DNA from: Bacteroidetes bacterium 46-16
GTDB taxonomy: Bacteria; Bacteroidota; Bacteroidia; Chitinophagales; Chitinophagaceae
Direction: 5' to 3'
Length of the DNA: 64,000 nt
Assembly: GCA_001897835.1 (NCBI GenBank)
Contig: MKUN01000028.1
Location: forward strand, 248,001 to 312,000
Positions 2,686 through 27,921 of this stretch are shown piece after piece. Position 1 is the stretch's first letter; each line of letters starts with the position of its first letter. The notes below the pieces were generated by a model. That model saw only the letters and a list, made by a program, of their open reading frames with translations, searched no databases and was not told the origin of the DNA. The position numbers and the translations under genes were made by a program.

Positions 2686-4716
2686 ATGCGATTTAATATA
2701 GAACGGCCATATCCGCCTGCAGGTGACCAGCCCGAAGCCATAAAGCAATTGGTTGAAGGTATAAACGATGGCGAGAAGTTCCATGCGCTCCTTGGGGTTA
2801 CCGGCTCGGGTAAGACCTTTACCATGGCCAATGTGGTGCAGGAAGTCCAGAAGCCTACTCTGGTATTAACGCATAACAAAACCCTTGTAGCCCAGTTGTA
2901 TGGTGAGTTCAGGGCTTTCTTCCCCAACAATGCAGTGGAATATTTCGTTTCGTACTACGACTATTACCAGCCCGAGGCATACATGCCCACGAGCGATACC
3001 TATATCGAGAAAGATCTTTCTATAAATGAAGAACTGGAAAAACTGAGATTACGGGCAACCTCCAGTTTGCTGAGTGGCAGGCGCGATATTATCGTAGTGG
3101 CCTCCGTATCCTGTATTTATGGTATGGGTAACCCTACCGAATATGAGAACGGTATCATACGCTTCAACAGGGGCGATAATATAGGCCGCAATGCTTTTCT
3201 TCATAGCCTCGTCAATTCATTATACAATCGCAGCCAGGGCGATTTTACAAGAGGCACCTTCCGGGTAAAAGGCGATACGGTCGATATCAACCTGCCTTAT
3301 GTGGATTACGGTTACCGCATTACCTTTTTTGGCGATGAAGTGGAAGAGATAGAAAGCTTTGAGACAGATACGGGAAAGCGTATCGGTACAATGGAAAATG
3401 CGGCCATTTTTCCTGCCAATCTATACTTGGCACCCCGCAACCAGATCACGCAGATCATTTACGAGATACAGGACGAGATGAATGCACAGGTAGAGTATTT
3501 CAAAAGCATAGATAAGCCACTGGAAGCGCAGCGCATCAAGGAGCGGGTGAGCTATGATCTTGAGATGATACAGGAACTGGGCTATTGCAGCGGTATCGAG
3601 AACTACTCGCGCTTCCTCGACAGGCGCAGGCCCGGCACACGGCCCTTTTGCCTGCTCGATTATTTTCCCAAAGATTACCTGCTCATCATCGACGAAAGCC
3701 ATGTGACCATACCTCAGATCAGCGGCATGTATGGCGGCGACCGCTCCCGTAAACTGACCCTTGTCGATTTTGGTTTCCGCCTGCCTTCGGCACTTGATAA
3801 CCGCCCGCTCAACTTTCATGAGTTTGAGCAGCAGCTCAACCAGGTAGTATTTGTTAGTGCCACGCCCGGCAGGTATGAGCTGGAGCAGACAGGCGGCGTG
3901 GTAGTAGAACAGGTAGTGCGACCCACTGGCCTGCTTGACCCGCCAATTGAGATACGCCCCAGTATCAACCAGGTCGATGACCTGCTCGATGAGATAGATA
4001 AGCGGGTACAGAAAGGTCATCGCATACTGGTCACCACGCTTACCAAGCGCATGGCCGAGGAAATGGATAAATACCTCAAGCGTATAAACATTAAATCCCG
4101 ATACATACATTCCGAGGTTGACACGCTGGAACGGGTAGAGATACTGCGCGATCTGCGTCTGGGCAATATAGATGTATTGGTCGGTGTCAACCTTTTACGT
4201 GAGGGCCTCGATCTGCCCGAAGTTTCTTTAATGGCCATATTGGATGCAGATAAAGAAGGCTTCCTGCGCGATGAGCGCTCACTTACCCAGATGGCAGGCC
4301 GTGCTGCCCGTAATGTGGATGGTCTCGTCATCTTCTATGCCGACAGGATGACCGAAAGTATGCAGCGCACTATTGACGAGACCAATCGCCGCAGGGAAAA
4401 GCAATTGAGGTATAACAGCGAGAATGGCATCATGCCACAAACTGTTATAAAGTCTAAAGAGCAGATTTTCAGGCAAACATCTGTACTCGACATAAAAGGA
4501 TACGATGAGCAAAGCAAGTATGCAGTTAATGATGAAACCCTGACCATTGCTGCTGAGGACAATGTAGAATACAAGAATGTGGCTCAACTGGATAAACTGA
4601 TAGCGCAGGCAAAAAAAGCAATGGAAAAAGCCGCGAAAGACCTGGACTTTATGGAAGCTGCCCGTCTCAGGGATAAATTCCTGCTATTGCAAAAAGAAAG
4701 AGAAGCACTGAAATAA
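2686..4716 (+). CDS. uvrB: excinuclease ABC subunit B
   Basis: UvrB is the damage-verifying helicase-like subunit of the UvrABC nucleotide excision repair complex in the cytoplasm. The protein has 676 residues, normal for the family. Visible features: Walker A GVTGSGKT near residue 38, the conserved beta-hairpin region YYDYYQPEAYMP near residue 90, the DESH helicase motif II, a motif VI-like QMAGRAARN near residue 540, and a C-terminal UVR domain (KDLDFMEAARLRDKF) that contacts UvrC. The gene stands alone. Its upstream region carries the TCGGGCAT repeats, which may regulate it. The ATG at 2686 matches the family N-terminus (MRFNIERPYPPAGDQPEAI). Confidence 0.97.
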   Translation: MRFNIERPYPPAGDQPEAIKQLVEGINDGEKFHALLGVTGSGKTFTMANVVQEVQKPTLVLTHNKTLVAQLYGEFRAFFPNNAVEYFVSYYDYYQPEAYMPTSDTYIEKDLSINEELEKLRLRATSSLLSGRRDIIVVASVSCIYGMGNPTEYENGIIRFNRGDNIGRNAFLHSLVNSLYNRSQGDFTRGTFRVKGDTVDINLPYVDYGYRITFFGDEVEEIESFETDTGKRIGTMENAAIFPANLYLAPRNQITQIIYEIQDEMNAQVEYFKSIDKPLEAQRIKERVSYDLEMIQELGYCSGIENYSRFLDRRRPGTRPFCLLDYFPKDYLLIIDESHVTIPQISGMYGGDRSRKLTLVDFGFRLPSALDNRPLNFHEFEQQLNQVVFVSATPGRYELEQTGGVVVEQVVRPTGLLDPPIEIRPSINQVDDLLDEIDKRVQKGHRILVTTLTKRMAEEMDKYLKRINIKSRYIHSEVDTLERVEILRDLRLGNIDVLVGVNLLREGLDLPEVSLMAILDADKEGFLRDERSLTQMAGRAARNVDGLVIFYADRMTESMQRTIDETNRRREKQLRYNSENGIMPQTVIKSKEQIFRQTSVLDIKGYDEQSKYAVNDETLTIAAEDNVEYKNVAQLDKLIAQAKKAMEKAAKDLDFMEAARLRDKFLLLQKEREALK

Positions 4717-4900: not shown

Positions 4901-7663
4901 ATGAAAAACATACTTACACCAAAAGTTATAATTCTTATTTGCTTGCTGGCAGGCGCTTTACAGGTTGCTGCTCAACCTCTTCCCTGCCCTCCGGGCAATA
5001 CTACCGCTTCCGAATCATCGGGTGATACCACGATATGTAATGGCGGTTGTGCTACGATACATGCCACAGGTACTACAACGCTCAGGTCCACATCTGATTA
5101 TACCATTTCTACCATTCCATACCTGCCTACCAACTACGATACGGGTACCCAGATACTGGCTAACCAGGATGATATCTACAGTCCTGTTATCGATCTTCCT
5201 TTCCCCTTTTGTTACTTTGGCACTAAATACACGCAGTGCGTTATAGGCTCTAATGGCCAGATATGTTTCGACATAGCCAATGCCAATGGCTTTTGCCCCT
5301 GGAGTATACCCGGCCCTGCCCCGGTTAACAATGCGGCAATGAAGAACTGTATTATGGGTTGCTACTATGATATGCTCCCCGCTACAGGTATTCGCTGGGC
5401 TGTATACGGCCAGGCTCCTTGCCGAACTTTTGTCGTGTCCTGGTACAATATCCCGGAGTTTAGCTGTACCAATCTCATCGGTACGCACCAGATAGTGCTT
5501 TATGAAAGCACTTACGCGATCGATGTTTTTATAGAAACCAAGCCTATATGTGCTAACTGGAATGGCGGCAAAGCCATACAGGGTATAGAAGATCAGACAG
5601 CTACTACTGCACTCTGTGTTGCAGGCAGGAATGCTACACAATGGACCCCTGATGTAGGGGGCGATGGCAAAAGGTTTACACCTAATGGTTCACCCACCTG
5701 GACATTTACCTGGACCGATGAGAATAATGCTGTAATAGGAACTTATACAACTACTGGCGATACTGCAAATACAAGTGTTGTTGTTTGTCCTACGGTTCAA
5801 TCTGTATATTATGTAACGGCAGTAGCCAGTTCCAATTGCGATTCGCTTACCTATGTTGATAGTGTTATAGTTCGTCTTGGTTTAGGACCGGAAATTGACT
5901 CTACGGCCATAACCAACCCAACAGGCTGTGGCTACCATGATGGTACTATCTCGCTGCACGGGGTCAAACCGGGTGATTCATTTGTTGTCAATTATAACCT
6001 GAACAATGTGGCCCAGCCACCTGTCATATTAGTGGGCAATGCTTTTGGGGTTATTACGCTCACGGGCCTTGGTGCCGGTACTTACGACAATGTTATTGTA
6101 AGCACAATTACGGGTTGCCTGTCAGATCCCGTAGGTCCTTTTACGCTAGTGGACCCGGTAGTTACTATATCGGGTTCTTCAAAGATCGACCCTTCGATCT
6201 GCGGTGCTCACGATGCCTCGGTGACCTTACAGGGCCTTGTGCCGGATAGTACCTATGCCATTCATTATACTTTTAATAACGTGGCGCAGCCTACGATACA
6301 AAAGGCCACCGATGCTTCAGGCAATGTAACGATAGATAGCCTGGGTGGTGGTGCCTATGCATTTTATGTTACTTACCGGGGTTGTACATCCAATACAATT
6401 AATGTAAATATTGTTGATCCGCCGTTCCAGGCCGATTTCACTTACGTTACGCACCTTGGTTGCGATGCGGATACGGTTGTCTTCCAGAACAATTCCATTG
6501 GTGGGTTCTACTTTGGCTGGAATTATGGTGATAATTCACCGATAGATACAACGTTTAGCCCCGTACACATTTATAATGTACACCAGCTATACGATGTCAC
6601 CTTGTTTAGTACAAATAACCTGTGTAACGACAGCCTGACAAAGCAAATAGATCTCAATCACCCGCTCCAGGCTGATTATGCTGTTAGTGCCGATAGTATC
6701 TGCCAGCACGGTTCTGTTGATTTTACCAATAATTCTATTGGTACTGCACCGGTATCCTACTTCTGGAGTTTTGGTGATGGCGCGGTTGATAGCAGCATGA
6801 CACCACCGGCACACTTTTATGATAATGTGGGTATATATACCACTATGCTGGCTATAACCGATTTCCTCTCCTGCCACGATACTGCCTATCATACTATCGT
6901 GGTGGATACGATACCCTATGCATTTATACATGCTACTGATACCAGTATCTGCCAGGGAAAGAACGTATCCTTTGATGCCGACTTCTCAGACAGGGGCAGC
7001 ACAGGACTTAGCTGGGATTTTACAGACGGGCAATATAGCTACAACCAATGGCCTGTTACCCATTCCTTTGATGCACCGGGCATCTATAGTGTAAAGCTGA
7101 ACATTACTTACAGTTATTGTCCCGATACCTTTGCCATACAAAAAATAATAGTGAAGCCTTACCCGATCATAAATCTTGGCCCTGATACCACTATGTGTCC
7201 CAATGCGGGGGATATCCTGCTTGCCGATCATATTAACTCAGGCAACCCGCTTGCAACATGGTTATGGAACAATGGCGCAAAGACCAATTATATACATGTA
7301 ACCGAACCGGGTGAGTATTCTGCTACTGTGTCTATTGACGGCTGTAGTACTGCAGATACCGTATCTGTTAAGAAAGATTGTTACCTCGACATCCCCAATA
7401 CTTTCACACCTAACGGTGATGGTACTAACGATTACTTCTTCCCCCGCGGACTATTGTCTGCAGGCGTTACTACGTTTAAAATGAACATATTCAACCGTTG
7501 GGGACAGGAAATATTTAAAACTACAAATATTGAGGGCCGTGGCTGGGATGGTAAATTCAATGATGTACCACAGCCCGTTGGTGTATATGTATATGTGATC
7601 GATGTATCATTCAAAGACGGGCGCTCTGAGCACTACCAGGGCAATGTAACACTGCTTAAATAA
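4901..7663 (+). CDS. PKD-repeat secreted protein with T9SS type B sorting domain
   Basis: This 920-residue exported protein has a signal peptide at residues 1-24 (ending QVAAQ). After a Cys-rich N-terminal part with a beta-sandwich look, residues about 340-510 hold two similar repeats (each containing YNLNNVAQPP or YTFNNVAQPT). PKD-type domains follow, recognisable by FGWNYGDNSP, FWSFGDGAVDS and LSWDFTDGQYS. The last ~85 residues (FTPNGDGTNDYF ... FNRWGQEIF ... PVGVYVYVIDV) are a gliding-motility-type type B C-terminal domain, the T9SS export and anchoring signal. It should be exported through the T9SS whose PorU/PorV/GldJ lie in this window. Function is probably a surface adhesin or matrix protein; no enzyme domain is seen. 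Confidence 0.85.
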   Translation: MKNILTPKVIILICLLAGALQVAAQPLPCPPGNTTASESSGDTTICNGGCATIHATGTTTLRSTSDYTISTIPYLPTNYDTGTQILANQDDIYSPVIDLPFPFCYFGTKYTQCVIGSNGQICFDIANANGFCPWSIPGPAPVNNAAMKNCIMGCYYDMLPATGIRWAVYGQAPCRTFVVSWYNIPEFSCTNLIGTHQIVLYESTYAIDVFIETKPICANWNGGKAIQGIEDQTATTALCVAGRNATQWTPDVGGDGKRFTPNGSPTWTFTWTDENNAVIGTYTTTGDTANTSVVVCPTVQSVYYVTAVASSNCDSLTYVDSVIVRLGLGPEIDSTAITNPTGCGYHDGTISLHGVKPGDSFVVNYNLNNVAQPPVILVGNAFGVITLTGLGAGTYDNVIVSTITGCLSDPVGPFTLVDPVVTISGSSKIDPSICGAHDASVTLQGLVPDSTYAIHYTFNNVAQPTIQKATDASGNVTIDSLGGGAYAFYVTYRGCTSNTINVNIVDPPFQADFTYVTHLGCDADTVVFQNNSIGGFYFGWNYGDNSPIDTTFSPVHIYNVHQLYDVTLFSTNNLCNDSLTKQIDLNHPLQADYAVSADSICQHGSVDFTNNSIGTAPVSYFWSFGDGAVDSSMTPPAHFYDNVGIYTTMLAITDFLSCHDTAYHTIVVDTIPYAFIHATDTSICQGKNVSFDADFSDRGSTGLSWDFTDGQYSYNQWPVTHSFDAPGIYSVKLNITYSYCPDTFAIQKIIVKPYPIINLGPDTTMCPNAGDILLADHINSGNPLATWLWNNGAKTNYIHVTEPGEYSATVSIDGCSTADTVSVKKDCYLDIPNTFTPNGDGTNDYFFPRGLLSAGVTTFKMNIFNRWGQEIFKTTNIEGRGWDGKFNDVPQPVGVYVYVIDVSFKDGRSEHYQGNVTLLK

Positions 7664-8838: not shown

Positions 8839-10033
8839 GGAGGTAATAGCACATATACGCACACTGTTTGGTACAGGGGACGAATTCGTTCCGCTGCATG
8901 CCCCATATTTTGGTGGCAATGAAAAGAAATATGTGCTTGATACCATCGATTCCACATTTGTTTCGTCGGTAGGCGCCTATGTGAACCGTTTCGAGGAAAT
9001 GATGGCTGAGATAACGGGGGCAAAGTATGCGGTGGCTACTACCAGTGGCACTACAGCCCTGCACCTGGCCCTTATAGTTGGTGGTGTGCAGCCGGGTGAA
9101 GAGGTGATCAGCCAGCCACTAACCTTTGTAGCAACGGCCAATGCGATAGCCCATGCCGGGGCTATACCGGTATTTGTTGATGTGGACCGCGATACTATGG
9201 GCATGTCGCCTGTGGCGCTTAAAGCCTTTTTGGCAGAGCATGTCACGATGCAGGATGGTATGGCTATAAACAAACACAGCGGCAGGCGTATTGCTGCCTG
9301 CGTGCCCATGCATACATTCGGTTTCCCGCTGCGTATCGATGAAGTGCAGGAAATATGTGCACAATACAATATTATGCTTATTGAGGATGCTGCCGAATCA
9401 TTGGGCAGCACTTACAAGGGCAAGCATACGGGTACCTTTGGCCAGGTCGGTATCTTCAGCTTCAATGGTAATAAAACAGTTACCTGTGGAGGTGGCGGTG
9501 CAATAGTGACCGATGATGAAACGATAGCCAAACATGCCAGGCACCTGTCAACCACAGCTAAAGTGGCCCATCCATGGGAGTTTGTACACGATGAGGTAGG
9601 TTATAATTACCGCATGCCAAATATAAATGCAGCCCTGGCCTGCGCACAATTGGAACAACTGCCGGCAATACTTGATAACAAAAGGATGCTGGCCGATGCA
9701 TATAATGAGTTTTTCAGAGAGCGAAATATCAGTTTTGTAAAGGGGATAGAAGAGAGTTCACCTAATCACTGGCTTAATACGATCATACTGGATAGTATAG
9801 AGGCCCGTGATGCTTTTTTGCAGGAAACCAATACGCAAAAAGTAATGACAAGGCCCATCTGGCAACTAATGAATAAGTTGCCGATGTATGCTGCATCAAT
9901 GTGCGGCAGTCTTAGCAATGCGGAATGGCTGGAAGCAAGAGCGGTGAATATACCCAGCAGCTACAGGCCCGGAACAAATAATATTGCGATCACCTCAAAA
10001 ACTTCAGATCTTGTACCTCAACAATTACCTTGA
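8831..10033 (+). CDS. LegC-family PLP aminotransferase (DegT/DnrJ/EryC1/StrS)
   Basis: This 400-residue sugar aminotransferase is of the LegC subgroup, which in the legionaminic acid pathway transfers an amino group to the C4 keto position of a nucleotide-linked 6-deoxy sugar. Evidence: the FVPLHAPYFGGNEKKYV N-terminus, the PLP phosphate loop TSGTTALHLAL, the acidic pair in LIEDAAESLGS, and the Schiff-base lysine in FSFNGNKTVTCGGGG (around residue 214). It overlaps the epimerase gene and is followed immediately by a PtmE-like nucleotidyltransferase, a pairing known from legionaminic acid clusters. Other pathway genes (legB, legI, legG) are not in the window, so the final product is inferred. 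The start ATG at 8831 is coupled to the previous stop. Confidence 0.8.
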   Translation: MYKEVIAHIRTLFGTGDEFVPLHAPYFGGNEKKYVLDTIDSTFVSSVGAYVNRFEEMMAEITGAKYAVATTSGTTALHLALIVGGVQPGEEVISQPLTFVATANAIAHAGAIPVFVDVDRDTMGMSPVALKAFLAEHVTMQDGMAINKHSGRRIAACVPMHTFGFPLRIDEVQEICAQYNIMLIEDAAESLGSTYKGKHTGTFGQVGIFSFNGNKTVTCGGGGAIVTDDETIAKHARHLSTTAKVAHPWEFVHDEVGYNYRMPNINAALACAQLEQLPAILDNKRMLADAYNEFFRERNISFVKGIEESSPNHWLNTIILDSIEARDAFLQETNTQKVMTRPIWQLMNKLPMYAASMCGSLSNAEWLEARAVNIPSSYRPGTNNIAITSKTSDLVPQQLP

Positions 10034-10046
10034 TTACGACACTGTA

Positions 10047-11114
10047 ATGACAACGCCAATGCAGGCAAGAGAAACACAGAAGCATACGATCAATAAGCGC
10101 TTATCGGTGCGCGATGCATTGCTGAAGCTTAACGACCTGAGGGCCGATGCCATCTTATTTGTTGTAGATGATAATGACAGGTTGCTTGGCGCACTTACTG
10201 ATGGCGACCTTCGCCGCGGTTTCATCAAAGGCCTCACCTTCGATACGCCGATATTGGACTATATCCAGCCCGATCCGCTTTTCGTGTACCAGGACGAGGT
10301 GCACCTTGCAGATCTTAATGACCTGAGGAAGCGTAACTTTCTTATCATCCCCATAGTTGACAGGGACAAGATCGTAGTTAAGATACTTAACCTCCGTATC
10401 AACTATTCGGTGATACCCGCCGATGTGATCATCATGGCCGGCGGCAAAGGCCAGCGCCTGATGCCCCTTACGCGCGATACCCCAAAGCCTATGTTGCCGG
10501 TAGGTGACAAGCCTATACTGGAGCATACTATCGGGCATTTATCAAAATACGGTATCAAAAATATTTATATCAGCGTCAACTATCTGGCCGATAAGATCAT
10601 CAACTACTTCGGCGATGGCAGCGACAGGGGGCTAAGCATAAATTATATACATGAGGACAAACCATTGGGCACGCTAGGCTCTGTAAAGCTGGCTGAAGAC
10701 CTGGAGCATGAATATGTATTGGTGATGAACTCGGATGTATTGACCAATATCGATTTTGCCGGCTTCTTCCAGGCATTTATCAAGTCGGGTGCTGATATGG
10801 CCGTAGCGGCCAGTACCTACCATGTAGAAGTGCCATATGGTGTGCTTGAGGTGGATGGAAACAACCTCGTGAATTCATTAAGAGAAAAGCCGAGCTATAC
10901 GTATTACTCCAATGCAGGTATATATCTTGCTAAAAAAGAACTGGTGAACATCATCCCGGATGATGAGTTCTATAACGTTACCGACCTGATGAGCCACCTG
11001 ATCAATGAAGGTAAAAAGGTGATGTCTTTCCCGATATTAGGTTATTGGCTGGATATAGGCAAACATGAAGACTACCGTAAAGCGCAGGAAGATATAAAAT
11101 ATATAAGCCTGTAA
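10047..11114 (+). CDS. sugar-1-phosphate nucleotidyltransferase with N-terminal CBS pair (PtmE-like)
   Basis: The ORF track begins at a TTG inside the previous gene. The ATG at 10047 gives 355 residues and a normal N-terminus. Residues about 10-120 form a CBS pair (LLGALTDGDLRRGFI in the first CBS), and residues about 125-350 a nucleotidyltransferase of the GlmU/RmlA superfamily with the NTP-binding signature MAGGKGQRLMPLTRDTPKPM. The same CBS-NTP_transferase order occurs in PtmE, which makes GDP-GlcNAc in Campylobacter legionaminic acid synthesis. The role here is therefore probably activation of a hexosamine-1-phosphate, with CBS ligand control. The LegC neighbour supports this. The donor nucleotide is not determined. 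Confidence 0.8.
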   Translation: MTTPMQARETQKHTINKRLSVRDALLKLNDLRADAILFVVDDNDRLLGALTDGDLRRGFIKGLTFDTPILDYIQPDPLFVYQDEVHLADLNDLRKRNFLIIPIVDRDKIVVKILNLRINYSVIPADVIIMAGGKGQRLMPLTRDTPKPMLPVGDKPILEHTIGHLSKYGIKNIYISVNYLADKIINYFGDGSDRGLSINYIHEDKPLGTLGSVKLAEDLEHEYVLVMNSDVLTNIDFAGFFQAFIKSGADMAVAASTYHVEVPYGVLEVDGNNLVNSLREKPSYTYYSNAGIYLAKKELVNIIPDDEFYNVTDLMSHLINEGKKVMSFPILGYWLDIGKHEDYRKAQEDIKYISL

Positions 11115-16371: not shown

Positions 16372-17613
16372 ATGCAGTCATATTACATATTAACGGTTAT
16401 CATTACTATCTGTGCCGGGTTTGCCTATTTGAACCACAGGATCATAAAGCTGCCGCCTACTATAGGTATCATGGTGTTATCGCTCATAACCTCGCTGGCA
16501 GTAGTAGCTGCGGGCAAGGTCATGCCATCTATTTCGCAGCCCCTTACCGAAATGATATCCACCATTGACTTTCACGACCTGCTGATGAAGATCATGCTGA
16601 GCTTCCTGCTGTTTGCAGGGGCCATACATATAGATGCTGCCAAACTTAAAGCAGAGCGCCTGCCCGTTATCGTACTGGCTACTGTGGGTACGCTTATATC
16701 CACTTTTTTAGTTGGGGGGCTGATATACTTTTTATTTGGCTTCTTCGATGCGCATATCGATTTCATTTATTGTTTATTGTTTGGCGCCCTCATATCGCCT
16801 ACCGACCCGATAGCCGTGCTGGGCATATTGAAGCGCACTAAAATACCCGGTTCGCTGCAATTAAAGATAGCCGGGGAATCTTTATTCAATGACGGTGTGG
16901 CAGTGGTGATCTTTCTTACGATAATGGAAGTATCGGTAAAGGGAACGGATAATTTAACCTTCTCAGGGGTCAGTCTTCTTTTTTTGAGAGAAGCGGTAGG
17001 CGGATTGATCTATGGCGCCCTGTTAGGCTATGCCGGCTTTTTCCTGCTGCGCTCAATTGACAATTATAAAACCGAGGTGCTGATCACTATTGCCATGGTA
17101 ATGGGGGGCTATATGCTGGCCGATGAGCTGCATATCTCAGGCCCCATAGCTATGGTAGTGGCCGGGCTGATCACCGGCAATAAAGGAAAAGAACTGGCCA
17201 TGTCGGACACTACGAGGGATTATATAGGCAAGTTTTGGGAGTTAATAGATGAGATACTCAATGCAATATTGTTCCTTCTTGTAGGCTTTGAGATGCTGGT
17301 TGTCAAAGTGAATATTGGCATTATGATCATTGGTGTCATTACTATATTCGTGGTACTGCTGGCCAGGTGGATATCTGTAGCCTTACCTATTACCCTGCTA
17401 CGGCCCTTCGCCCGGTTCGAGAAGCATGCCATCAGTATACTTGCGTGGGGCGGCCTGCGCGGCGGCATATCCGTAGCACTGGCTTTATCATTGCCTGCAG
17501 AGATGTACCGCGACCAGTTTGTATCCATTACCTATTCTGTAGTGATATTCTCAATAATTGTCCAGGGCCTTACCATTGAGCGCGTGGCAAAAAAACTGGT
17601 CAATACCGACTGA
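16372..17613 (+). CDS. CPA1-type Na+(K+)/H+ antiporter, NhaP-like
   Basis: The 413-residue inner-membrane antiporter has about 12 hydrophobic segments. Diagnostic motifs are FGALISPTDPIAVLGILKR (about residue 138) and the ion-binding GESLFNDGVAVVIFLT (about residue 168), plus AWGGLRGGISVALALSLP near residue 363, all typical of CPA1/NhaP. No large C-terminal regulatory domain is present. It exchanges monovalent cations for protons in pH and salt homeostasis. The DUF389 gene starts one base after its stop, so the two are co-translated. Confidence 0.9.
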   Translation: MQSYYILTVIITICAGFAYLNHRIIKLPPTIGIMVLSLITSLAVVAAGKVMPSISQPLTEMISTIDFHDLLMKIMLSFLLFAGAIHIDAAKLKAERLPVIVLATVGTLISTFLVGGLIYFLFGFFDAHIDFIYCLLFGALISPTDPIAVLGILKRTKIPGSLQLKIAGESLFNDGVAVVIFLTIMEVSVKGTDNLTFSGVSLLFLREAVGGLIYGALLGYAGFFLLRSIDNYKTEVLITIAMVMGGYMLADELHISGPIAMVVAGLITGNKGKELAMSDTTRDYIGKFWELIDEILNAILFLLVGFEMLVVKVNIGIMIIGVITIFVVLLARWISVALPITLLRPFARFEKHAISILAWGGLRGGISVALALSLPAEMYRDQFVSITYSVVIFSIIVQGLTIERVAKKLVNTD

Positions 17614-17614
17614 T

Positions 17615-18937
17615 ATGAAAAGGATAATGGTGATCATAAGGGCGGCTTTGCGCAACCTTTTCAACCTTCATTATGATAAGGATGATGATGCTACGATCAT
17701 AGAATCCATATCGCGGAATGTGAATTTTAAGGGTGCGAATATATGGGCGCTTATATTTGCCATATTCATAGCGTCGATAGGCCTGAATGTGAACTCTGCG
17801 GCTGTGGTGATAGGCGCTATGTTAATATCACCGCTTATGGGTCCTATAATGGGCATAGGCCTGGGTATAGGCATCAATAATTTCGACCTGGTAAAACGTG
17901 GTATTACCAATTTCCTTACAGCAATGGTGGTGAGTATCATCACATCCACCCTATACTTTTCACTAACACCGCTGCATGATGCCGGCTCTGAGTTGCTGGC
18001 ACGTACCACACCGTCGATATGGGACGTGTTTATAGCCTTCTTTGGCGGGCTGGCAGGTATCGTGGCCAGTACGCGAAAAGAAAAGACCAATGTGATTCCC
18101 GGTGTGGCGATAGCAACTGCGCTCATGCCACCGCTCTGCACGGCAGGATATGGCCTTGCCAATGGCCAGTTCTTTTACTTCCTTGGCGCCCTGTATCTCT
18201 TTTTTATCAACAGCGTATTCATTTGCCTGGCCACTTACCTGATCGTACGTTCACTGAAGCTGAACAAAACACAATTTGAGGATGAAGCGCGGGAGAAACG
18301 TGTTAAAAGGTATATACTCATTATTGTTACCATTACGGTACTGCCCAGTATCTATATGGCCTACCGTATAGTGGACAAAAGCATATTCGAGAGCAATGCG
18401 AATAATTTCATAACGCAGGAGTTCAATTATAAGAATACCCAGGTGGTGAACAGGTCTTTTAACTATGACAATGGTAAAAAGCAGATAGATGTGCTGCTGA
18501 TAGGCGAAGAACTGGATAAGGCGCAGATAGATTCGCTGAAGAAGAAAATGGATGCCTATAACATTGGTAAGGCGAAGCTGAATATCAAACAGGGACTTAA
18601 TGCCAAGCAGGAGATAGACTTTGCACAGGTAAAGGCAAGCATACTGGAAGATGTGTTCAATAAAGAACAAAAAGAAAAGGAGTTGCAGAAAGCTAAGGCC
18701 GATTCAGCAGGCCCTTATCCCGGTTTGCGGGAAGAACTGCGCTCACTGTACCCTGCATTACAGCGATATACAGTAACGAAGACAGTATTCAACTACACCG
18801 ACAGTATGCGCAGGGATACCGTGATATTATTTGTGGGAGATTTCTCAAAACCCTTTGCTAAGAAAGACAGGGAACTCTTGCAGAACTGGTTAAAGTTCCG
18901 CATACATGCCGATTCGGTAAAACTTGTAATAGAATGA
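17615..18937 (+). CDS. DUF389 membrane protein
   Basis: The ORF track starts inside the antiporter gene. The ATG at 17615 follows the antiporter stop by one base (TGATATG) and gives 440 residues. Residues about 30-235 form a DUF389 domain with the family motifs NVNSAAVVIGAMLISPLMGPIMGIGLG and GVAIATALMPPLCTAGYGLA and about five to six TM segments. The remaining ~200 residues are soluble, with charged, Lys-rich helices and two related alpha/beta segments (QVVNRSFNYDNGKKQIDVLLIG and YTVTKTVFNYTDSMRRDTVILFVGD). Function is unknown; tight coupling to an antiporter suggests a shared ion or stress role. Confidence 0.88.
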   Translation: MKRIMVIIRAALRNLFNLHYDKDDDATIIESISRNVNFKGANIWALIFAIFIASIGLNVNSAAVVIGAMLISPLMGPIMGIGLGIGINNFDLVKRGITNFLTAMVVSIITSTLYFSLTPLHDAGSELLARTTPSIWDVFIAFFGGLAGIVASTRKEKTNVIPGVAIATALMPPLCTAGYGLANGQFFYFLGALYLFFINSVFICLATYLIVRSLKLNKTQFEDEAREKRVKRYILIIVTITVLPSIYMAYRIVDKSIFESNANNFITQEFNYKNTQVVNRSFNYDNGKKQIDVLLIGEELDKAQIDSLKKKMDAYNIGKAKLNIKQGLNAKQEIDFAQVKASILEDVFNKEQKEKELQKAKADSAGPYPGLREELRSLYPALQRYTVTKTVFNYTDSMRRDTVILFVGDFSKPFAKKDRELLQNWLKFRIHADSVKLVIE

Positions 18938-21557: not shown

Positions 21558-22766
21558 ATGCCGGGAACAGAACTGTTTGGAAGCGAAGAACGCAAGGAGA
21601 TACTGGATGTGGTGGATAATGGTGTCCTTTTCAGGTATGGGCACGACCAGCAACGTAACGGGATATGGAAGACCCGTGAGTTTGAAGCCGAAGTGTGTAA
21701 AATAACAGGGGCTAAATATGCCCATGCCCTCTCAAGTGGCTCTGCCGCTGTGGCAGTAGCACTTGCAGCATCGGGTATAGGTACAGGCGACGAGGTCATT
21801 GTCCCTCCTTTTACCTTCATTGCCACCATTGAGGCGGTATTGTTCCTTGGTGCTATCCCGGTATTTGCCGAGATCGATGAGTCCCTCTGTCTTAGTGCCG
21901 AAGGGATAAAGAAGGCCCTCACAAGCAAAACAAAAGCCATTTGCCTGGTGCACATGTGTGGTGCTATGGCTGATATGGATGCCGTTATGCAGGTAGTGAA
22001 TGAGCACGACCTGGTACTGGTGGAAGACGCGGGACAGGCCTTTGCTGCTTCATATAAGGGCAAGGCTGCGGGCCTTTTTGGTAAAGCAGGTAGTTTCTCT
22101 TTCGATTTTTTTAAAATAGCAACCGCAGGAGAGGGTGGTGTATTTGTGACCAATGATGAGGCCACCTATAAAATTGCCGATGCTTATTCCGACCATGGCC
22201 ATAATCATGAAGGCAATAACCGGGGTATGGAACAACACCCCGTTCTGGGCTTTAATTACCGTATTAGCGAACTGCATGCTGCGGTGGGCCTGGCCCAAAC
22301 CCGTAAAGTACCGCAAATACTTAAAGCGAACAGGGAACATAAAAAGCTGCTGTGTGAGATACTTTTAGAAACAGACGGTATCTCATTTGCGCGCGTTGCT
22401 GATCCGGAAGGTGATTCGGCCACATTCCTCAATTTATTGCTGCCCGATACCGAAACGGCAAAGCGCACTGTAGAACATTTGAATAAGGCAGGTATCGGCG
22501 GTTTTAATTATTGGTACACCAATATGTACCATTTCATTAATCAATGGGACCATTTGAAAGAAATGCGGACAGCGTCAAAACTGCCCGTTGAGTTATTGGG
22601 CAGCCCGCAGGATTATGCAAAACTGGAATTACCCAAATCGCAGGAGGTAATGGGCAGGCTTATATCATTTGGCATCCGTTGCACATGGACAGATGTGGAT
22701 GTGAGGATGCTTGCGGCAGGCATTTCAGGCTGTGTGAAACTGGCAATGGGCGTGCCTGCCCTTTAA
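21558..22766 (+). CDS. kdnA: 8-amino-3,8-dideoxy-manno-octulosonate transaminase
   Basis: The 402-residue DegT/StrS-fold PLP aminotransferase starts MPGTELFGSEERKEILDV. PLP motifs: ALSSGSAAVAVAL, VLVEDAGQAFAAS, and the Schiff-base lysine in FSFDFFKIATAGEGG (Lys186). In the Kdo8N pathway KdnA transfers an amino group from glutamate to the C8 aldehyde made by KdnB, giving 8-amino-Kdo, which replaces Kdo in lipid A core and changes envelope charge. Assignment rests on family resemblance plus the adjacent kdnB, kdsA, kdsC and kdsB, 14 bp or less to a few hundred bp apart on one strand. It is the first gene of the operon, with a matching promoter. Confidence 0.88.
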   Translation: MPGTELFGSEERKEILDVVDNGVLFRYGHDQQRNGIWKTREFEAEVCKITGAKYAHALSSGSAAVAVALAASGIGTGDEVIVPPFTFIATIEAVLFLGAIPVFAEIDESLCLSAEGIKKALTSKTKAICLVHMCGAMADMDAVMQVVNEHDLVLVEDAGQAFAASYKGKAAGLFGKAGSFSFDFFKIATAGEGGVFVTNDEATYKIADAYSDHGHNHEGNNRGMEQHPVLGFNYRISELHAAVGLAQTRKVPQILKANREHKKLLCEILLETDGISFARVADPEGDSATFLNLLLPDTETAKRTVEHLNKAGIGGFNYWYTNMYHFINQWDHLKEMRTASKLPVELLGSPQDYAKLELPKSQEVMGRLISFGIRCTWTDVDVRMLAAGISGCVKLAMGVPAL

Positions 22767-22780
22767 TACAATAGATATAA

Positions 22781-23860
22781 ATGCACAAGAACTTTAAGAA
22801 TATTGAGAAAGTAGTATTCGGACGCGGCAGCTTCGATATGATGGATAGCATCCTCTCGGAGCGCAGGACGGATAATGCAAGATTTATACTGTTTATCGTT
22901 GATGATTTCTTCCGCAGCAAGGAGCTGGAGCGCCGCCTGCCGGTAAGAGATGAAGATGTTGTCCGCTTTATTGATGTGGACCCGCAGGAGCCCACAACCG
23001 AGCAAATAGATACCCTGCGCGATGAAGTGCTTGTATCCAGGGGCATACCTGCCGGTGTAGTGGGCATTGGCGGGGGTAGCATCATGGATATTGCCAAGGC
23101 AGTATCGCTTATGTTCACCAATGAAGGCTCTTCTACATTATACCAGGGCCTTAATCTTATAAAAAATCCCGGTATCTATCATTTGGGTGTGCCTACTATT
23201 TCGGGCACAGGGGCCGAGGTATCTATGACCGCGGTGCTTACAGGGCCAGAGAAGAAACTGGGCCTTAAGTGCGACTGGACGGTATTTAACCAGGTGATAC
23301 TGGACCCTGAATTGATAGCTACCGTCCCCACCGATAAGTGGTTCTATACCGGTATGGATACTTACATCCATTGTATTGAATCGGAAAATGGCATCCTGAA
23401 TAATGCATACAGCCATGCCTATGCCGAACAATCGCTGAAGTTGTGCCGCGAAATATACCTGGGTGATAGTGCAGGACAAACGCCGGAAAATAATGATAAG
23501 CTCATGGTGGCGTCTATGATGGGCGGGCTTAGCCTCACTTATTCCGAAGTTGGGGTATGCCATGCCTTGTCGTATGGTTTATCCAAGATACATGGTGAAA
23601 AGCATTGCTATGCCAATTGTCTTGCTTTCCAGCATCTTGAGGACTATTATCCCGAAGGTGTAAAAGAGTTTAAACAAATGCTGGCTAAGCATAAGGTAAG
23701 CCTGCCCCAGGGTCTTAGCAAAGAGTGGAGCGACGATGAGATAACAGCAATGGCACAGGTGGCCTACAACCTGCATCATATGTGGAACCACGCTATTGGC
23801 ACCGATTGGCAGGAGAAAATAAGCCTCGATACCATCAAAAAGCTTTACGAAAGAATGTAA
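22781..23860 (+). CDS. kdnB: 3-deoxy-manno-octulosonate 8-oxidase
   Basis: The 359-residue protein belongs to the iron-containing alcohol dehydrogenase superfamily. Visible: nucleotide-binding GIGGGSIMDIAKAVS near residue 90, PTISGTGAEVSMTAV near residue 140, and metal-ligand regions TGMDTYIHCIE, VCHALSYGLSKIHGEKH. KdnB oxidises the C8 hydroxyl of Kdo to the aldehyde used by KdnA. It lies 14 bp behind kdnA, the standard pairing for Kdo8N synthesis. Its stop is directly followed by the kdsA start (2 bp). Family certain; the specific substrate is inferred from the operon. Confidence 0.9.
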   Translation: MHKNFKNIEKVVFGRGSFDMMDSILSERRTDNARFILFIVDDFFRSKELERRLPVRDEDVVRFIDVDPQEPTTEQIDTLRDEVLVSRGIPAGVVGIGGGSIMDIAKAVSLMFTNEGSSTLYQGLNLIKNPGIYHLGVPTISGTGAEVSMTAVLTGPEKKLGLKCDWTVFNQVILDPELIATVPTDKWFYTGMDTYIHCIESENGILNNAYSHAYAEQSLKLCREIYLGDSAGQTPENNDKLMVASMMGGLSLTYSEVGVCHALSYGLSKIHGEKHCYANCLAFQHLEDYYPEGVKEFKQMLAKHKVSLPQGLSKEWSDDEITAMAQVAYNLHHMWNHAIGTDWQEKISLDTIKKLYERM

Positions 23861-23862
23861 TT

Positions 23863-24696
23863 ATGAGCGACAAAAAAATTAGGGTCGGCAATATAGAATG
23901 TGGTGCAAATGAGTTATTTCTCATTTCAGGCCCTTGTGTGATAGAGGATGAGACCACGATGATGAAAACGGCTGAAACGCTGAAAGAAGTTAGCGAACGG
24001 ATGAACATCCCCATCATCTATAAGTCGTCGTTCACAAAGGATAACCGCAGCAGCCTTAAATATTATGACGGCCCGGGCCTTGAAAAGGGCGTAAAAATAC
24101 TGGCTAAAATAAAAGAGCAGTTCGGTTTCCCGGTATTGACCGATATACATTACCCGGAGCAGGCAGCACCTGCCGCCGAAGTATGCGATGTGTTACAGAT
24201 CCCGGCATATCTCTGTATGCAATCTGGCCTCTTGGTAGCGGCCGCTAAAACAGGGGCCGTCATTAATATAAAGCACGGCCAGTTCCTTGCACCGGAGAAT
24301 ATGAAACACCCTGTTGGCAAATGCATAGATGCCGGTAATGACAAGATCATCCTCACTGAGCGGGGCTATACCATGGGGTATAACGACCTTGTTGTCGATC
24401 CCCGAAGCTTTTATCACCTGGGGCAATTAGGCTACCCGGTAGTATTTGATATTACACATTCCATACGTAAGTATGGCATACCGAGTGCTGATGCAAAAGG
24501 TGGTGCCCGTGAATTTTTGCCTGTTTTGAGCAGGGCTGGGGTAGCGGCCGGTGTGGATGGTGTGTTCATTGAAACGCACCCGGAGCCGGAAAAAGCACTT
24601 TGCGATGCTGCCAGCCAGTTATGTGTTTATGACCTTGAGGAGTTTTTGAAACCATTGCTGGAGCTGCATGCGCTTGAAGTAAAGTACAGGAAATAA
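23863..24696 (+). CDS. kdsA: 3-deoxy-8-phosphooctulonate (Kdo-8-P) synthase
   Basis: The ORF track start lies within kdnB. The ATG at 23863 gives 277 residues, normal for KdsA. The enzyme condenses phosphoenolpyruvate with D-arabinose-5-phosphate to Kdo-8-phosphate. Motifs: FLISGPCVIEDE, IYKSSFTKDNRSS, the PEP-binding lysines, VLTDIHYPEQA, VINIKHGQFLAPENM, VVFDITHSIRKYG and FIETHPEP. The ITH(S)...ETHP pattern with no extra Cys-based metal site in the N-terminus is compatible with either class; PCVIE contains a Cys as in metal-dependent forms. Its substrate arabinose-5-P should come from a nearby source, which makes the downstream transaldolase-CBS gene notable. Confidence 0.96.
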   Translation: MSDKKIRVGNIECGANELFLISGPCVIEDETTMMKTAETLKEVSERMNIPIIYKSSFTKDNRSSLKYYDGPGLEKGVKILAKIKEQFGFPVLTDIHYPEQAAPAAEVCDVLQIPAYLCMQSGLLVAAAKTGAVINIKHGQFLAPENMKHPVGKCIDAGNDKIILTERGYTMGYNDLVVDPRSFYHLGQLGYPVVFDITHSIRKYGIPSADAKGGAREFLPVLSRAGVAAGVDGVFIETHPEPEKALCDAASQLCVYDLEEFLKPLLELHALEVKYRK

Positions 24697-24753: not shown

Positions 24754-25011
24754 ATGGATGCCAAGATAACGATGAGTTTTGATGCTGCAGTAATAAACAA
24801 GGCCAAGGAGTATGCCGAAAGTCACGGCATGAGCCTGAGCCGCCTTACCGAGGTTTTACTTCGTAAGGTAGTGGCTGGTGATTACCGCAATATAGAAGAT
24901 ATGCCGGTAGCTGATTGGGTATCAATGGTGTCTGAAGGGGAAGTCGAGTATCATACCCGCTCCCGCAGCCGTAAAAAACTGAAAAACGAATATTACAATA
25001 ATAAGAAATGA
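24754..25011 (+). CDS. VapB-like/DUF6364-type antitoxin
   Basis: The 85-residue protein begins with a ribbon-helix-helix-like segment (AKITMSFDAAVINKAKEYAESHGMSLSRLTEVLLRKVV) and ends in a basic, probably disordered tail (YHTRSRSRKKLKNEYYNNKK) that would wrap the toxin. It should dimerise, bind the direct repeats at its own promoter and neutralise the downstream PIN toxin. Its end overlaps the toxin start by 4 bp (ATGA). The pair sits inside the Kdo operon between kdsA and the transaldolase-CBS gene, in the same direction. Confidence 0.8.
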   Translation: MDAKITMSFDAAVINKAKEYAESHGMSLSRLTEVLLRKVVAGDYRNIEDMPVADWVSMVSEGEVEYHTRSRSRKKLKNEYYNNKK

Positions 25012-25424
25012 GGCTTTTCCTCGACGCTAACATTCTCGTTTCGGTACTGAATAAGGAATACCCCGTATATCCATACACGGCAAGAATATTGAGCCTTGCC
25101 GATAATAAAAGATACACCTTGGTAACCTCATCTATTTGCCTTGCCATAGCATATTACTTTGCTGAAAAGAAGCATGGCGATGTAAGTGCAAAACAGAAGA
25201 TAAGTATACTGCTACAGCATATGGATATAGCGGATTGTGGAAAAAAAGAAGCAGTGCTTGCTGCGCAGGATAAAAAAGTGCATGATTTTGAGGACGGCTT
25301 GCAGTATTATGCCGCAAGAAATTCAAAGTGTAGTTGTATCATTACAAGCGATATGGATGATTTTTATTTTTCTGAGCTGGATGTTTTTGAACCTGAAGTA
25401 TTTTTAAGGAAACATATAAAATAA
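25008..25424 (+). CDS. PIN-domain toxin (VapC-like)
   Basis: The 138-residue protein has the PIN nuclease signature: MRLFLDANILVSVL (Asp6), an internal acidic residue after the helical part, DFEDGLQYYAA near residue 93, and a final IITSDMDDF. These acidic residues coordinate metal in RNases of the VapC type. It is longer than many VapC proteins mainly at the C-terminus. Translational coupling to the antitoxin (4-bp overlap) ensures matched synthesis. Target RNA unknown. It is followed after 18 bp by the transaldolase-CBS gene, so transcripts from the TA promoter may run into the LPS genes. Confidence 0.85.
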   Translation: MRLFLDANILVSVLNKEYPVYPYTARILSLADNKRYTLVTSSICLAIAYYFAEKKHGDVSAKQKISILLQHMDIADCGKKEAVLAAQDKKVHDFEDGLQYYAARNSKCSCIITSDMDDFYFSELDVFEPEVFLRKHIK

Positions 25425-25442
25425 CAAAGCAATACACAATAC

Positions 25443-26456
25443 ATGGAATTATATCTTGATTCTGCCAACCTGAAGGAAATAGAAGAAGGCTTTAAGCTGG
25501 GTTTCCTCAATGGTCTCACTACCACGCCTACGTTCATGCAGCGGGAGGGTATCACCGATATTGACGCTACGATTGTAAAGCTCTCGCAGATGGTGCCTGT
25601 GCTGCAAATAGAGGCTTTGGGTAATTCTGCAGAGGATATACTCAGGGAGGCCCGCCGCCAGCTCGATCTTGGGCTTGATCCCAAGCGTACCGTATTCAAG
25701 ATACCTGTATCGCTCGAAGGGGTGCGGGCTTGCCACATGCTGCGTCGCGAAGGCCTGCTGGTCAATGTGCACCTGGTATATACCCTGCAGCAGGCATATA
25801 TGGCCATGCATGCAGGGGCTACGTATGTATGTCCCCTCGTTGGCCGCCTGCAAGACCAGGGTCATGATGCACTGGCGCTGGTGGAGCAGTGTGTAAATGC
25901 TGTTTACCAATACGGTTATGATACCAAAATAATGTTCAGTTCGGTGCGCAATGTAGAGCATGTGCGCAATGCCATCAATATTGGTGTGCATACCATCACC
26001 GTTCCGCTCAAGATATTGAAACTGCTTACGGAGAATAATTTCACAACACTCGGTACGGAGCAGTTCATCAGTGATACGCGACTAATGACCGTAAGGGTAA
26101 AGGATGCCCTGAATGGCCTAAACCCATTGGTGCAGGCTGATGCCAGCATGAAAGATGCTATCGTAAAGATGACCGGCTACGGCTTTGGCGCTATAACGGT
26201 TGTGGATAGTGAGGGCAACCTGGAAGGAGTTTTTACAGATGGCGACCTGAGGCGTTTATTGCAAAATGAAGGAGAACATATCCTTGATAAAAAGCTGGGC
26301 GATATGGACTACAAAACCCCGGTAAGCATAGATGCCGGTGCCCTCCTGAATGATGCCGCAGCCTTATTTAAGAAAACGAACGTAGATACCATATTGGTTA
26401 CGGATAATGGCAAACCATATGGTATGCTGGATATACAAGACCTTAAGAACGACTGA
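25443..26456 (+). CDS. transaldolase/FSA-like domain fused to a CBS pair
   Basis: This 337-residue protein lies between kdsA and kdsC. Residues 1 to about 215 align by eye with fructose-6-phosphate aldolase/transaldolase: MELYLDSANLKEIEEG (Asp6), TVFKIPVSLEG with the Schiff-base lysine (Lys86), LVYTLQQAYMAMHAGATYVCPLVGRLQDQG, and ITVPLKILKLL. The usual TTNPS loop reads TTTPT, so the active-site Asn28 of FSA is Thr. Residues about 225-335 are a CBS pair (LEGVFTDGDLRRLLQN; TILVTDNGKPYGMLDIQDL), the same accessory module found in arabinose-5-P isomerase KdsD. No KdsD is in the operon. FSA-type enzymes can join glycolaldehyde and glyceraldehyde-3-P to arabinose-5-P, so this may be an alternative source of the KdsA substrate; this is inference. 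It could instead be a regulatory or isomerase-like homologue. Confidence 0.82.
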   Translation: MELYLDSANLKEIEEGFKLGFLNGLTTTPTFMQREGITDIDATIVKLSQMVPVLQIEALGNSAEDILREARRQLDLGLDPKRTVFKIPVSLEGVRACHMLRREGLLVNVHLVYTLQQAYMAMHAGATYVCPLVGRLQDQGHDALALVEQCVNAVYQYGYDTKIMFSSVRNVEHVRNAINIGVHTITVPLKILKLLTENNFTTLGTEQFISDTRLMTVRVKDALNGLNPLVQADASMKDAIVKMTGYGFGAITVVDSEGNLEGVFTDGDLRRLLQNEGEHILDKKLGDMDYKTPVSIDAGALLNDAAALFKKTNVDTILVTDNGKPYGMLDIQDLKND

Positions 26457-26473: not shown

Positions 26474-27181
26474 ATGGATAAACTCAGCGAGATAAAAAAG
26501 AAATTCACAGGTAGTTTTCTTGCAGAACCCGCAGTGCTGCAGGAAAAGCTATCGCATATAAAAGCTTTTATCTTCGACTGGGATGGTGTGTTTAATGATG
26601 GTCGTAAAGATGAGCATGGTTCCAGTCCCTTCAGCGAGGTAGATTCAATGGGGGTCAATATGCTGCGTTTCAATCATTACCTGCATATGGCTACGCTGCC
26701 TTCAGCGGCCATCATATCGGGTGAGCGAAACAAGGCATCGTTTACATTTGGCGCCCGCGAGCATTTTCACTCGGTTTATTATAAAGTGTTGAGTAAGGTT
26801 GATGCATTAGGGCATGTTTGTAACAAGCATGGTATATTACCCCATGAGATAGCATACTTTTTTGATGATGTGCTCGACCTGGCCTTTGCTGAGCAATGCG
26901 GGCTGCGCATTATGGTTGGCAGGTCCTGTAATCCATTTCTTATTGAATATGCAGACAGGAAGGGCCTGGCTGACTATATAACTGCAGCAGATGGAGGAAA
27001 CCATGCTGTTAGAGAGGCTTCAGAGCTTATTATGGGCCTGCGTGGACTATATGACGATACTATAGAGCAGCGCACTTATTTTTCCGATAAGTATAAAGAA
27101 TACCTCAGGCTGCGTAATATGGTAGAACCTGTATTTTATTCTACCGTGCATTCCGAAATAAAAGAACAAGTACCCCAATGA
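26474..27181 (+). CDS. kdsC: HAD-family Kdo-8-phosphate phosphatase
   Basis: The 235-residue HAD phosphatase has nucleophile motif FIFDWDGVFNDGRKDE near residue 35 (DxDGV form with Trp), SAAIISGERN near residue 80 as motif II, and FFDDVLDLAFAEQCG near residue 140 as motif IV. KdsC removes phosphate from Kdo-8-P. Compared with the usual ~180 residues it has an N-terminal extension of ~30 and a longer C-terminal part (DDTIEQRTYFSDKYKEYLRLRN). It overlaps kdsB by 4 bp. Assignment is by HAD motifs and operon position. Confidence 0.85.
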   Translation: MDKLSEIKKKFTGSFLAEPAVLQEKLSHIKAFIFDWDGVFNDGRKDEHGSSPFSEVDSMGVNMLRFNHYLHMATLPSAAIISGERNKASFTFGAREHFHSVYYKVLSKVDALGHVCNKHGILPHEIAYFFDDVLDLAFAEQCGLRIMVGRSCNPFLIEYADRKGLADYITAADGGNHAVREASELIMGLRGLYDDTIEQRTYFSDKYKEYLRLRNMVEPVFYSTVHSEIKEQVPQ

Positions 27182-27921
27182 TAGTTGGCATCATCCCCGC
27201 ACGTTATGCATCTACCCGTTTCCCGGGTAAGCCGCTTATCGAAATAGAAGGGCGGAGTATGATACAGCGCGTATATGAGCAGGCTGCAAAGAGTTCATTC
27301 CTAAGGAAAGTAGTGGTAGCCACCGATGATGAAAGGATATTGCAGCACGTAAGGGCTTTTGGCGGAGAGGCGGTGATGACGGCAATGCACCATCCCAGCG
27401 GTACCGACCGTTGTTGGGATGCCTTGCAGCAGTTGCAGGAAGATTACAGTTATGTGATAAACATACAGGGAGATGAACCTTTCATATCACCTGGACAGGT
27501 AGACGAGCTGGCGATAGCATTACAGGATGGCAGTACAGAGCTGGCTACGCAGATGATCGCTGTTGGCAGCCATGAATTGCTATTTGATAAAGGGGAAGTG
27601 AAAATAGTGTTGAATGACAGGAACGAGGCGCTGTATTTCAGCCGTTCGGTCATCCCTTTTCTCAAGGGTATTGATGAAAAAGAATGGCACCTCCATCATA
27701 TTTACTACCGGCATGTAGGTATGTATGCATACAGGAGGGATGTACTGGAAGCAATAACCAAACTACCGGTATCCGCTCTTGAAAAAGCAGAATCGCTGGA
27801 GCAACTGCGCTGGCTGGAGCATGGGTTTAAGATAAAATGCGTGCCTACCAAATACGATAGCCATTGTATAGATACCCCGGAGGACATAGACAAAGTATTG
27901 GCCATGATAAGAAAAAAATAA
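27178..27921 (+). CDS. kdsB: CMP-Kdo synthetase
   Basis: The 247-residue 3-deoxy-manno-octulosonate cytidylyltransferase activates Kdo (or Kdo8N) with CTP for transfer to lipid A. Motifs: IIPARYASTRFPGKPL at the N-terminus, VVVATDDERI, HPSGTDRCWDAL, INIQGDEPFI and ALYFSRSVIPF, HVGMYAYRRDVLE. Full length for the family. It is the last gene of the operon, its ATG overlapping the kdsC stop, and the stop runs straight into a strong terminator. Confidence 0.96.
   Translation: MIVGIIPARYASTRFPGKPLIEIEGRSMIQRVYEQAAKSSFLRKVVVATDDERILQHVRAFGGEAVMTAMHHPSGTDRCWDALQQLQEDYSYVINIQGDEPFISPGQVDELAIALQDGSTELATQMIAVGSHELLFDKGEVKIVLNDRNEALYFSRSVIPFLKGIDEKEWHLHHIYYRHVGMYAYRRDVLEAITKLPVSALEKAESLEQLRWLEHGFKIKCVPTKYDSHCIDTPEDIDKVLAMIRKK

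Follow-up and report, generated by a model that had tools for sequence, protein, structure and literature searches.

A transaldolase-derived enzyme seems to have taken the place of KdsD in many Bacteroidota and some viruses

Many Bacteroidota and some of their viruses seem to have swapped KdsD, the standard source of the first precursor of the outer-membrane sugar Kdo, for an unrelated, transaldolase-derived enzyme to which this task had not been ascribed before. This enzyme, FSA-CBS, is encoded in the window, by which we mean the whole stretch of 64,000 nucleotides that we analysed, and comparative genomics shows its repeated exchange with kdsD and its linkage to kdsA. Its alternation with KdsD, together with its pairing with KdsA, leads us to infer that D-arabinose-5-phosphate (A5P) is very likely its product, and we consider FSA-CBS likely to be a dedicated A5P-forming enzyme that replaces KdsD. 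Its barrel would be that of a short transaldolase/FSA enzyme with its active site remodelled, and its CBS pair would have been carried over from KdsD. The A5P made by FSA-CBS would then pass to KdsA, KdsC and KdsB in turn.

The first committed step of Kdo synthesis is the formation of A5P, and the loss of both A5P isomerases, KdsD and GutQ, is reported to be lethal in E. coli (PMC10448790). A second solution to this step would close a gap in the pathway of many Bacteroidota genomes, where the gene at present passes for an ordinary transaldolase, and would serve as a warning that pathway predictions or inhibitors based on KdsD would miss these organisms. It would also give biocatalysis a natural enzyme evolved for A5P; the wish for an improved A5P aldolase has been voiced (PMC9947464). 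Beyond its use, FSA-CBS would be a clean case of a CBS module moved between unrelated catalytic domains. A literature search, with most subscription journals outside its reach, found no paper that describes such a replacement, and none joining A5P isomerase with a transaldolase and CBS, or A5P with a transaldolase and kdsA.

The gene, its domains and its operon

The gene at 25443-26456 (+) is a single open reading frame of 337 aa with an ATG start, and it stands in the order kdnA-kdnB-kdsA-(toxin/antitoxin)-FSA-CBS-kdsC-kdsB. The features are as follows.

21558..22766 (+): DegT/DnrJ-type aminotransferase, KdnA-like by context (Pfam 1.2e-79; no NCBIfam model over cut-off)
22781..23860 (+): iron-containing alcohol dehydrogenase, KdnB-like by context (Pfam Fe-ADH 4.9e-23)
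23863..24696 (+): kdsA, 3-deoxy-8-phosphooctulonate synthase, the A5P consumer (NF003543 347.7 bits, TIGR01362 330.8 bits, both over cut-off)
24754..25011 (+): RelB/ParD-like antitoxin candidate, outside the pathway (weak NCBIfam match, 0.021; overlaps the PIN gene)
25008..25424 (+): PIN-domain toxin candidate, outside the pathway (Pfam PIN_3 1.4e-13)
25443..26081 (+): TAL/FSA-like barrel of FSA-CBS, residues 1-213 (Pfam TAL_FSA; alignment with 27 canonical homologues; Foldseek 1vpx)
26082..26456 (+): KdsD-type CBS pair of FSA-CBS, residues 214-337, and stop codon (Pfam CBS, profile and PDB matches)
26474..27181 (+): KdsC-like HAD phosphatase, a conserved neighbour (NCBIfam KdsC 4e-15, below cut-off)
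27178..27921 (+): kdsB, CMP-Kdo synthetase (NF003952 314.6 bits, TIGR00466 211 bits, over cut-off)

An initial annotation, made from the sequence, had described an FSA-like barrel joined to a CBS pair with a TDGDLRR motif inside a Kdo operon, and the domain searches bear this description out. Pfam matched TAL_FSA over residues 3-201 (5.5e-35) and CBS in two stretches (7.7e-16), the motif is present in the CBS pair, and both kdsA and kdsB score over their NCBIfam cut-offs. A SIS domain was not found in the product by Pfam, which reported TAL_FSA instead, and the NCBIfam models for KpsF, GutQ and KdsD matched the protein solely over the CBS region (TIGR00393: 153-265). The NCBIfam FSA model gave 6.4e-46 but stayed under its cut-off (TIGR00875, 156.5 bits vs 245.95). 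The closest solved relatives of the barrel are the short transaldolases 1vpx, 3r8r and 3s0c, at 33-35% identity, and a structure model built on a 39-row homologue alignment (mean pLDDT 88.3, whereas single-sequence prediction reached only 41.8) was matched by Foldseek to 1vpx with a target-normalised TM of ~0.89. Since the window's genome has a canonical short transaldolase (226 aa) at another place (contig C29; L007), the operon gene is not the housekeeping transaldolase. We propose the barrel as the A5P-forming catalytic domain, with Lys86 as the putative Schiff-base lysine and a remodelled donor pocket.

The CBS module was probably taken over from KdsD, because both profile scores and PDB matches place it closest to that protein. 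A profile of the family's CBS pairs gave 53-80 bits for all 14 KdsD CBS pairs and at most 46.6 bits for every other CBS pair of four genomes, and the three best PDB sequences were CBS pairs of A5P isomerases. The pair is probably a regulatory module. Some of these A5P-isomerase structures were reportedly solved with CMP-Kdo; if so, end-product feedback would be the likely function. Another gene with CBS domains (388-aa frame) is located 15 kb upstream, at about 10044-10388 of the window, and its CBS pair (23.8 bits) is not especially KdsD-like.

For the remaining genes, the names KdnA and KdnB, of 8-amino-Kdo synthesis, fit the aminotransferase and the alcohol dehydrogenase by family and context; KdnB is an iron-containing alcohol dehydrogenase (PMC5125639). 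The start of kdsA is more likely at 23863, judging by the homologue in L010. The antitoxin and toxin candidates overlap by 4 bases and are inserted between kdsA and the FSA-CBS gene; about ten of the homologous operons have the PIN gene at this place, while most lack it.

Exchange with kdsD and linkage to kds genes

The initial annotation had suggested searching the whole genome for kdsD. Family searches of the window's genome (4.36 Mb, 98.6% complete) did not find the gene, and the KpsF model matched CBS regions only. The SIS domains of this genome are confined to a GlmS-like protein of 619 aa, which has two, and a 327-aa protein that, read from its sequence, appears to be phosphoglucose/phosphomannose-isomerase-like.

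The same picture emerged from other genomes. Within the order, FSA-CBS was found in 6 of 199 genomes at 63-100% identity, the next best matches dropping to 37% and being canonical; kdsD was absent from five of these six and present in 57/57 relatives that lack FSA-CBS. When 85,462 species genomes were scanned, at least 557 relatives could be confirmed, the best 80 of which were kept; these 80 are 77-91% identical and nearly all from Bacteroidota, and 46 of the 50 genomes examined from them were without kdsD, including the complete chromosome CP075895.1. Pooled, kdsD is absent from 51/56 genomes with FSA-CBS vs 0/57 relatives without it. In a sample of 393 genomes of the phylum, six genomes spread over four families and two classes carried FSA-CBS; none of them was among the 278 genomes with kdsD, all six kept kdsA, and their families contain kdsD-bearing members. 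Within the class, kdsD was missing in 5/5 FSA-CBS genomes vs 3/98 others (p = 6e-7, an optimistic value given the relatedness of the genomes).

Genomes lacking both genes are informative as well. Among 15 such genomes kdsA was also absent in 12, and a short SIS protein is present in two of the remaining three. Across the genomes tested, kdsA is thus accompanied by a SIS isomerase or by FSA-CBS, with G269 as a possible exception. That genome (L154) has kdsA, no over-threshold kdsD and no FSA-CBS, its SIS proteins being GlmS-like plus two weaker ones (199 and 311 aa frames), and it may hold yet another A5P source. Besides kdsA, L168 (G466), L178 (G582), L183 (G474) and L169 (G579) have short proteins (204-252 aa frames) with a SIS domain only, in place of the SIS-CBS type of KdsD; such proteins, found in one or two families of the class, would be a further variant of the A5P step.

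The swaps between kdsD and FSA-CBS are repeated, and both states occur within the single genus g5: FSA-CBS without kdsD in G063, and kdsD without FSA-CBS in G121, G133, G170 and G184. Five genomes with both genes (L097, L107, L119, L131 and G190, locus L010) may be intermediates. The FSA-CBS operons of L059 and L114, which bear the labels Azovibrio restrictus and Candidatus Saccharibacteria, share 79-84% identity with copies from Bacteroidota and probably lie on misbinned contigs.

An association of the homologues with Kdo genes, on which the initial annotation had made its proposal depend, was found at most loci. Among the loci of the best 80 of at least 557 relatives, 73 have one or more of kdsA, kdsB and kdsC within the fetched flanks, and no kds gene was found there at the other seven. 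A distant homologue, G607, has the order kdsB-kdsA-FSA-CBS adjoining kdnA/kdnB-like genes. The gene is kept at the Kdn-less loci L073 and L067, and L104 is unlinked although its genome likewise has no kdsD.

The association extends to three IMG/VR viral contigs that encode the barrel alone (213 aa, 61-64% identity, with the same pocket), each together with kdsA. On two of them the stop codon of the barrel gene overlaps the start of a KdsA-like gene (best NCBIfam match KDO8P synthase, somewhat below cut-off), and on the third KdsA and KdsB, both over cut-off, are encoded further upstream of the barrel. The Kdo genes lie at the following positions.

3980-4702, 9441-10274 and 17546-18187: viral contig L225 (IMG/VR 3300009000_001139)
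5001-6385: viral contigs L134 and L136

In a tree the FSA-CBS proteins and the viral barrels form neighbouring branches, which together make up a single clade (100/100). The viral cassette of barrel and kdsA without a CBS pair suggests that the barrel is sufficient for the function and that this function concerns the substrate of KdsA. The gene content suggests that uncultured viruses may make or boost CMP-Kdo during infection, and Type IX secretion tail domains near the viral genes point to probable hosts in the Bacteroidota. Neither a second alignment nor the pattern CPLVGRLQDQG recovered viral members beyond the same three contigs. The INPHARED phages held canonical transaldolases only, at <39% identity, and the viral form is known here from the IMG/VR contigs alone.

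We considered two explanations that would deprive FSA-CBS of this role. The missing kdsD could be an artefact of incomplete bins, and most FSA-CBS genomes are indeed metagenome bins, but the identical search detects kdsD in 57/57 relatives, and the gene is also absent from the complete chromosome CP075895.1, from G101 (3 contigs) and from genomes rated 98.6-100% complete. We therefore reject this explanation, to which we attach virtually no probability. It is also improbable that FSA-CBS only regulates Kdo/Kdo8N synthesis or acts beside it, say as a transaldolase controlled by CMP-Kdo, while kdsD-less genomes obtain A5P otherwise. The few genomes with both kdsD and FSA-CBS and the loci unlinked to kds genes would agree with such a role; the near-exclusive exchange with kdsD, which holds even where the gene is unlinked (L104), the bare barrel-kdsA pair on two viral contigs and the retention of the gene at the Kdn-less loci argue against it. 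The initial annotation had left the choice between a non-orthologous replacement and a regulated side-branch, and the kdsD exchange and kds linkage support the former much better than the latter.

Active site and candidate reactions

We aligned the pockets of 87 FSA-CBS and three viral sequences with those of 27 canonical homologues and four references. Across these 90 members 21 columns are invariant and never shared by the canonical homologues or references. Lys86 had been noted before, as had Thr in place of the active-site Asn28 of FSA (TTTPT), and the alignment agrees on both; Asn28 is present in 27/27 canonical homologues and the TTTPT motif, whose conservation was in question, is invariant in the family. 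The initial annotation had missed five more invariant changes, so that the FSA active-site substitutions found in 90/90 members are N28T, T109H, A/S129C, F/Y131L, D136Q and A165S. The positions of the FSA water triad and donor contact are here Leu132, Glu57, His110 and Thr28 in all 90, Glu57 standing at the FSA Gln59 position, where transaldolases also have Glu. Asp6, Thr26, Glu57, Lys86, Asn108, Arg135, Ser167 and Arg169 are retained, including the Schiff-base lysine and the phosphate-side arginines. Residues of the Asn28/Thr109/Ser129/Phe131 type occur in 25/27 canonical homologues, and the other two are FSA-like. In FSA, Asn28 and Asp6 touch the donor, Ala129 is in the donor pocket, and Gln59, Thr109 and Tyr131 hold the catalytic water (PMC13259622). 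As Tyr/Phe131 and Thr109 are lost, the known chemistry of FSA cannot simply be assumed.

Three routes to A5P could be envisaged: an aldol reaction of glycolaldehyde with glyceraldehyde-3-P (G3P), conversion of the C2 epimer ribose-5-P via a C1 imine, or isomerisation of ribulose-5-P. The reaction is the least certain part of our reading and, by reasoning, we lean tentatively towards a universal pentose phosphate, ribose-5-P being favoured. A universal metabolite is preferred over free glycolaldehyde because a single gene takes the place of kdsD in several lineages and also occurs in viruses; on a pentose-phosphate route a single gene would work in all of these settings with no new carbon supply. 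Ribose-5-P is preferred over ribulose-5-P because of the invariant Lys86 and the imine-to-phosphate spacing: A5P as a C1 imine would have the spacing of fructose-6-P as a C2 imine, minus the hydroxymethyl group held by the dihydroxyacetone pocket, and the pocket changes fit the loss of this group. Lys86 would form an imine at C1 of ribose-5-P and the enzyme would re-set C2, either by deprotonation and reprotonation or by retro-aldol cleavage and re-addition of the bound glycolaldehyde to G3P. With glycolaldehyde and G3P as substrates, the engineered TalB F178Y yields ribose-5-P as well as A5P (PMC9947464), and a transaldolase fold can therefore reach both epimers. The full proposal, somewhat speculative, is a natural aldose-phosphate 2-epimerase on a transaldolase fold, which would turn ribose-5-P into A5P via the Lys86 C1 imine, under the control of a KdsD-derived CBS pair and with a viral barrel-kdsA cassette. 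If true, Kdo synthesis would have a second way in, chemically distinct from the first.

The same role could be served by other chemistry. We regard it as unlikely that A5P is formed from free glycolaldehyde as donor and glyceraldehyde-3-P, as earlier proposed for this gene. FsaA and FsaB are reported to prefer glycolaldehyde as donor, with glyceraldehyde-3-P as acceptor, to give A5P (PMC6298115, PMC9947464). Lys86, Asp6 and both phosphate-side arginines are kept and the residues holding dihydroxyacetone (Asn28, Ala/Ser129) are changed, which speaks for this route, but Tyr131 and Thr109 are lost and neither a virus nor a single-gene swap would bring a supply of glycolaldehyde, which in its free form is not known to be abundant in these bacteria. 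KdsD-like chemistry, in which Lys86, His110 and Glu57 would serve as acid-base groups to convert ribulose-5-P into A5P with no lasting imine, would be the simplest one-for-one exchange, with substrate and product unchanged, and the new invariant His110, placed beside Glu57 by the alignment, could transfer protons. Against it, a C2 lysine imine of ribulose-5-P could not be hydrolysed to the aldose after the proton shift, and the imine-to-phosphate spacing would be one carbon off that of fructose-6-P, yet Lys86 is invariant; we find this route rather improbable.

Relation to known enzymes

FSA-CBS resembles KdsD/KpsF/GutQ (SIS plus CBS pair) in the kind of CBS pair, with its TDGDLRR motif, in the kdsA partner and, by co-occurrence, in pathway position, but the SIS catalytic domain of those isomerases is in FSA-CBS an unrelated transaldolase/FSA barrel with a Schiff-base lysine. 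E. coli FsaA, which can form A5P out of glycolaldehyde plus G3P both in vitro and inside engineered cells (PMC6298115, PMC9947464), differs from FSA-CBS in that its Asn28, Thr109, Ala129, Tyr131, Asp136 and Ala165 are replaced in FSA-CBS, where a CBS pair is added, and the two are about 24% identical. The fold and the residues Asp6, Thr26, Lys85, Arg134 and Ser166 of FsaA (1L6W) are common to both. FsaA is not known to have a natural role in A5P formation.

The short transaldolases of T. maritima (1vpx), B. subtilis (3r8r) and T. acidophilum (3s0c) share with FSA-CBS the Glu at the Gln59 position, Asn108 and the phosphate arginines, whereas their Asn28, Thr109, Ser129 and Phe131 are all replaced; each FSA-CBS genome sampled keeps its own canonical transaldolase. 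The A5P aldolase TalB F178Y is altered at the position of Leu132 in FSA-CBS, but it is an engineered enzyme with Tyr rather than Leu there and a pocket that is otherwise standard. As an aldolase-fold enzyme that would have been recruited to a known pathway step, FSA-CBS also recalls the L-ribulose-5-phosphate 4-epimerase AraD, in which an aldolase fold was turned into a sugar-phosphate epimerase via retro-aldol chemistry, although AraD belongs to a metal-dependent class II family, acts on another substrate and is not homologous.
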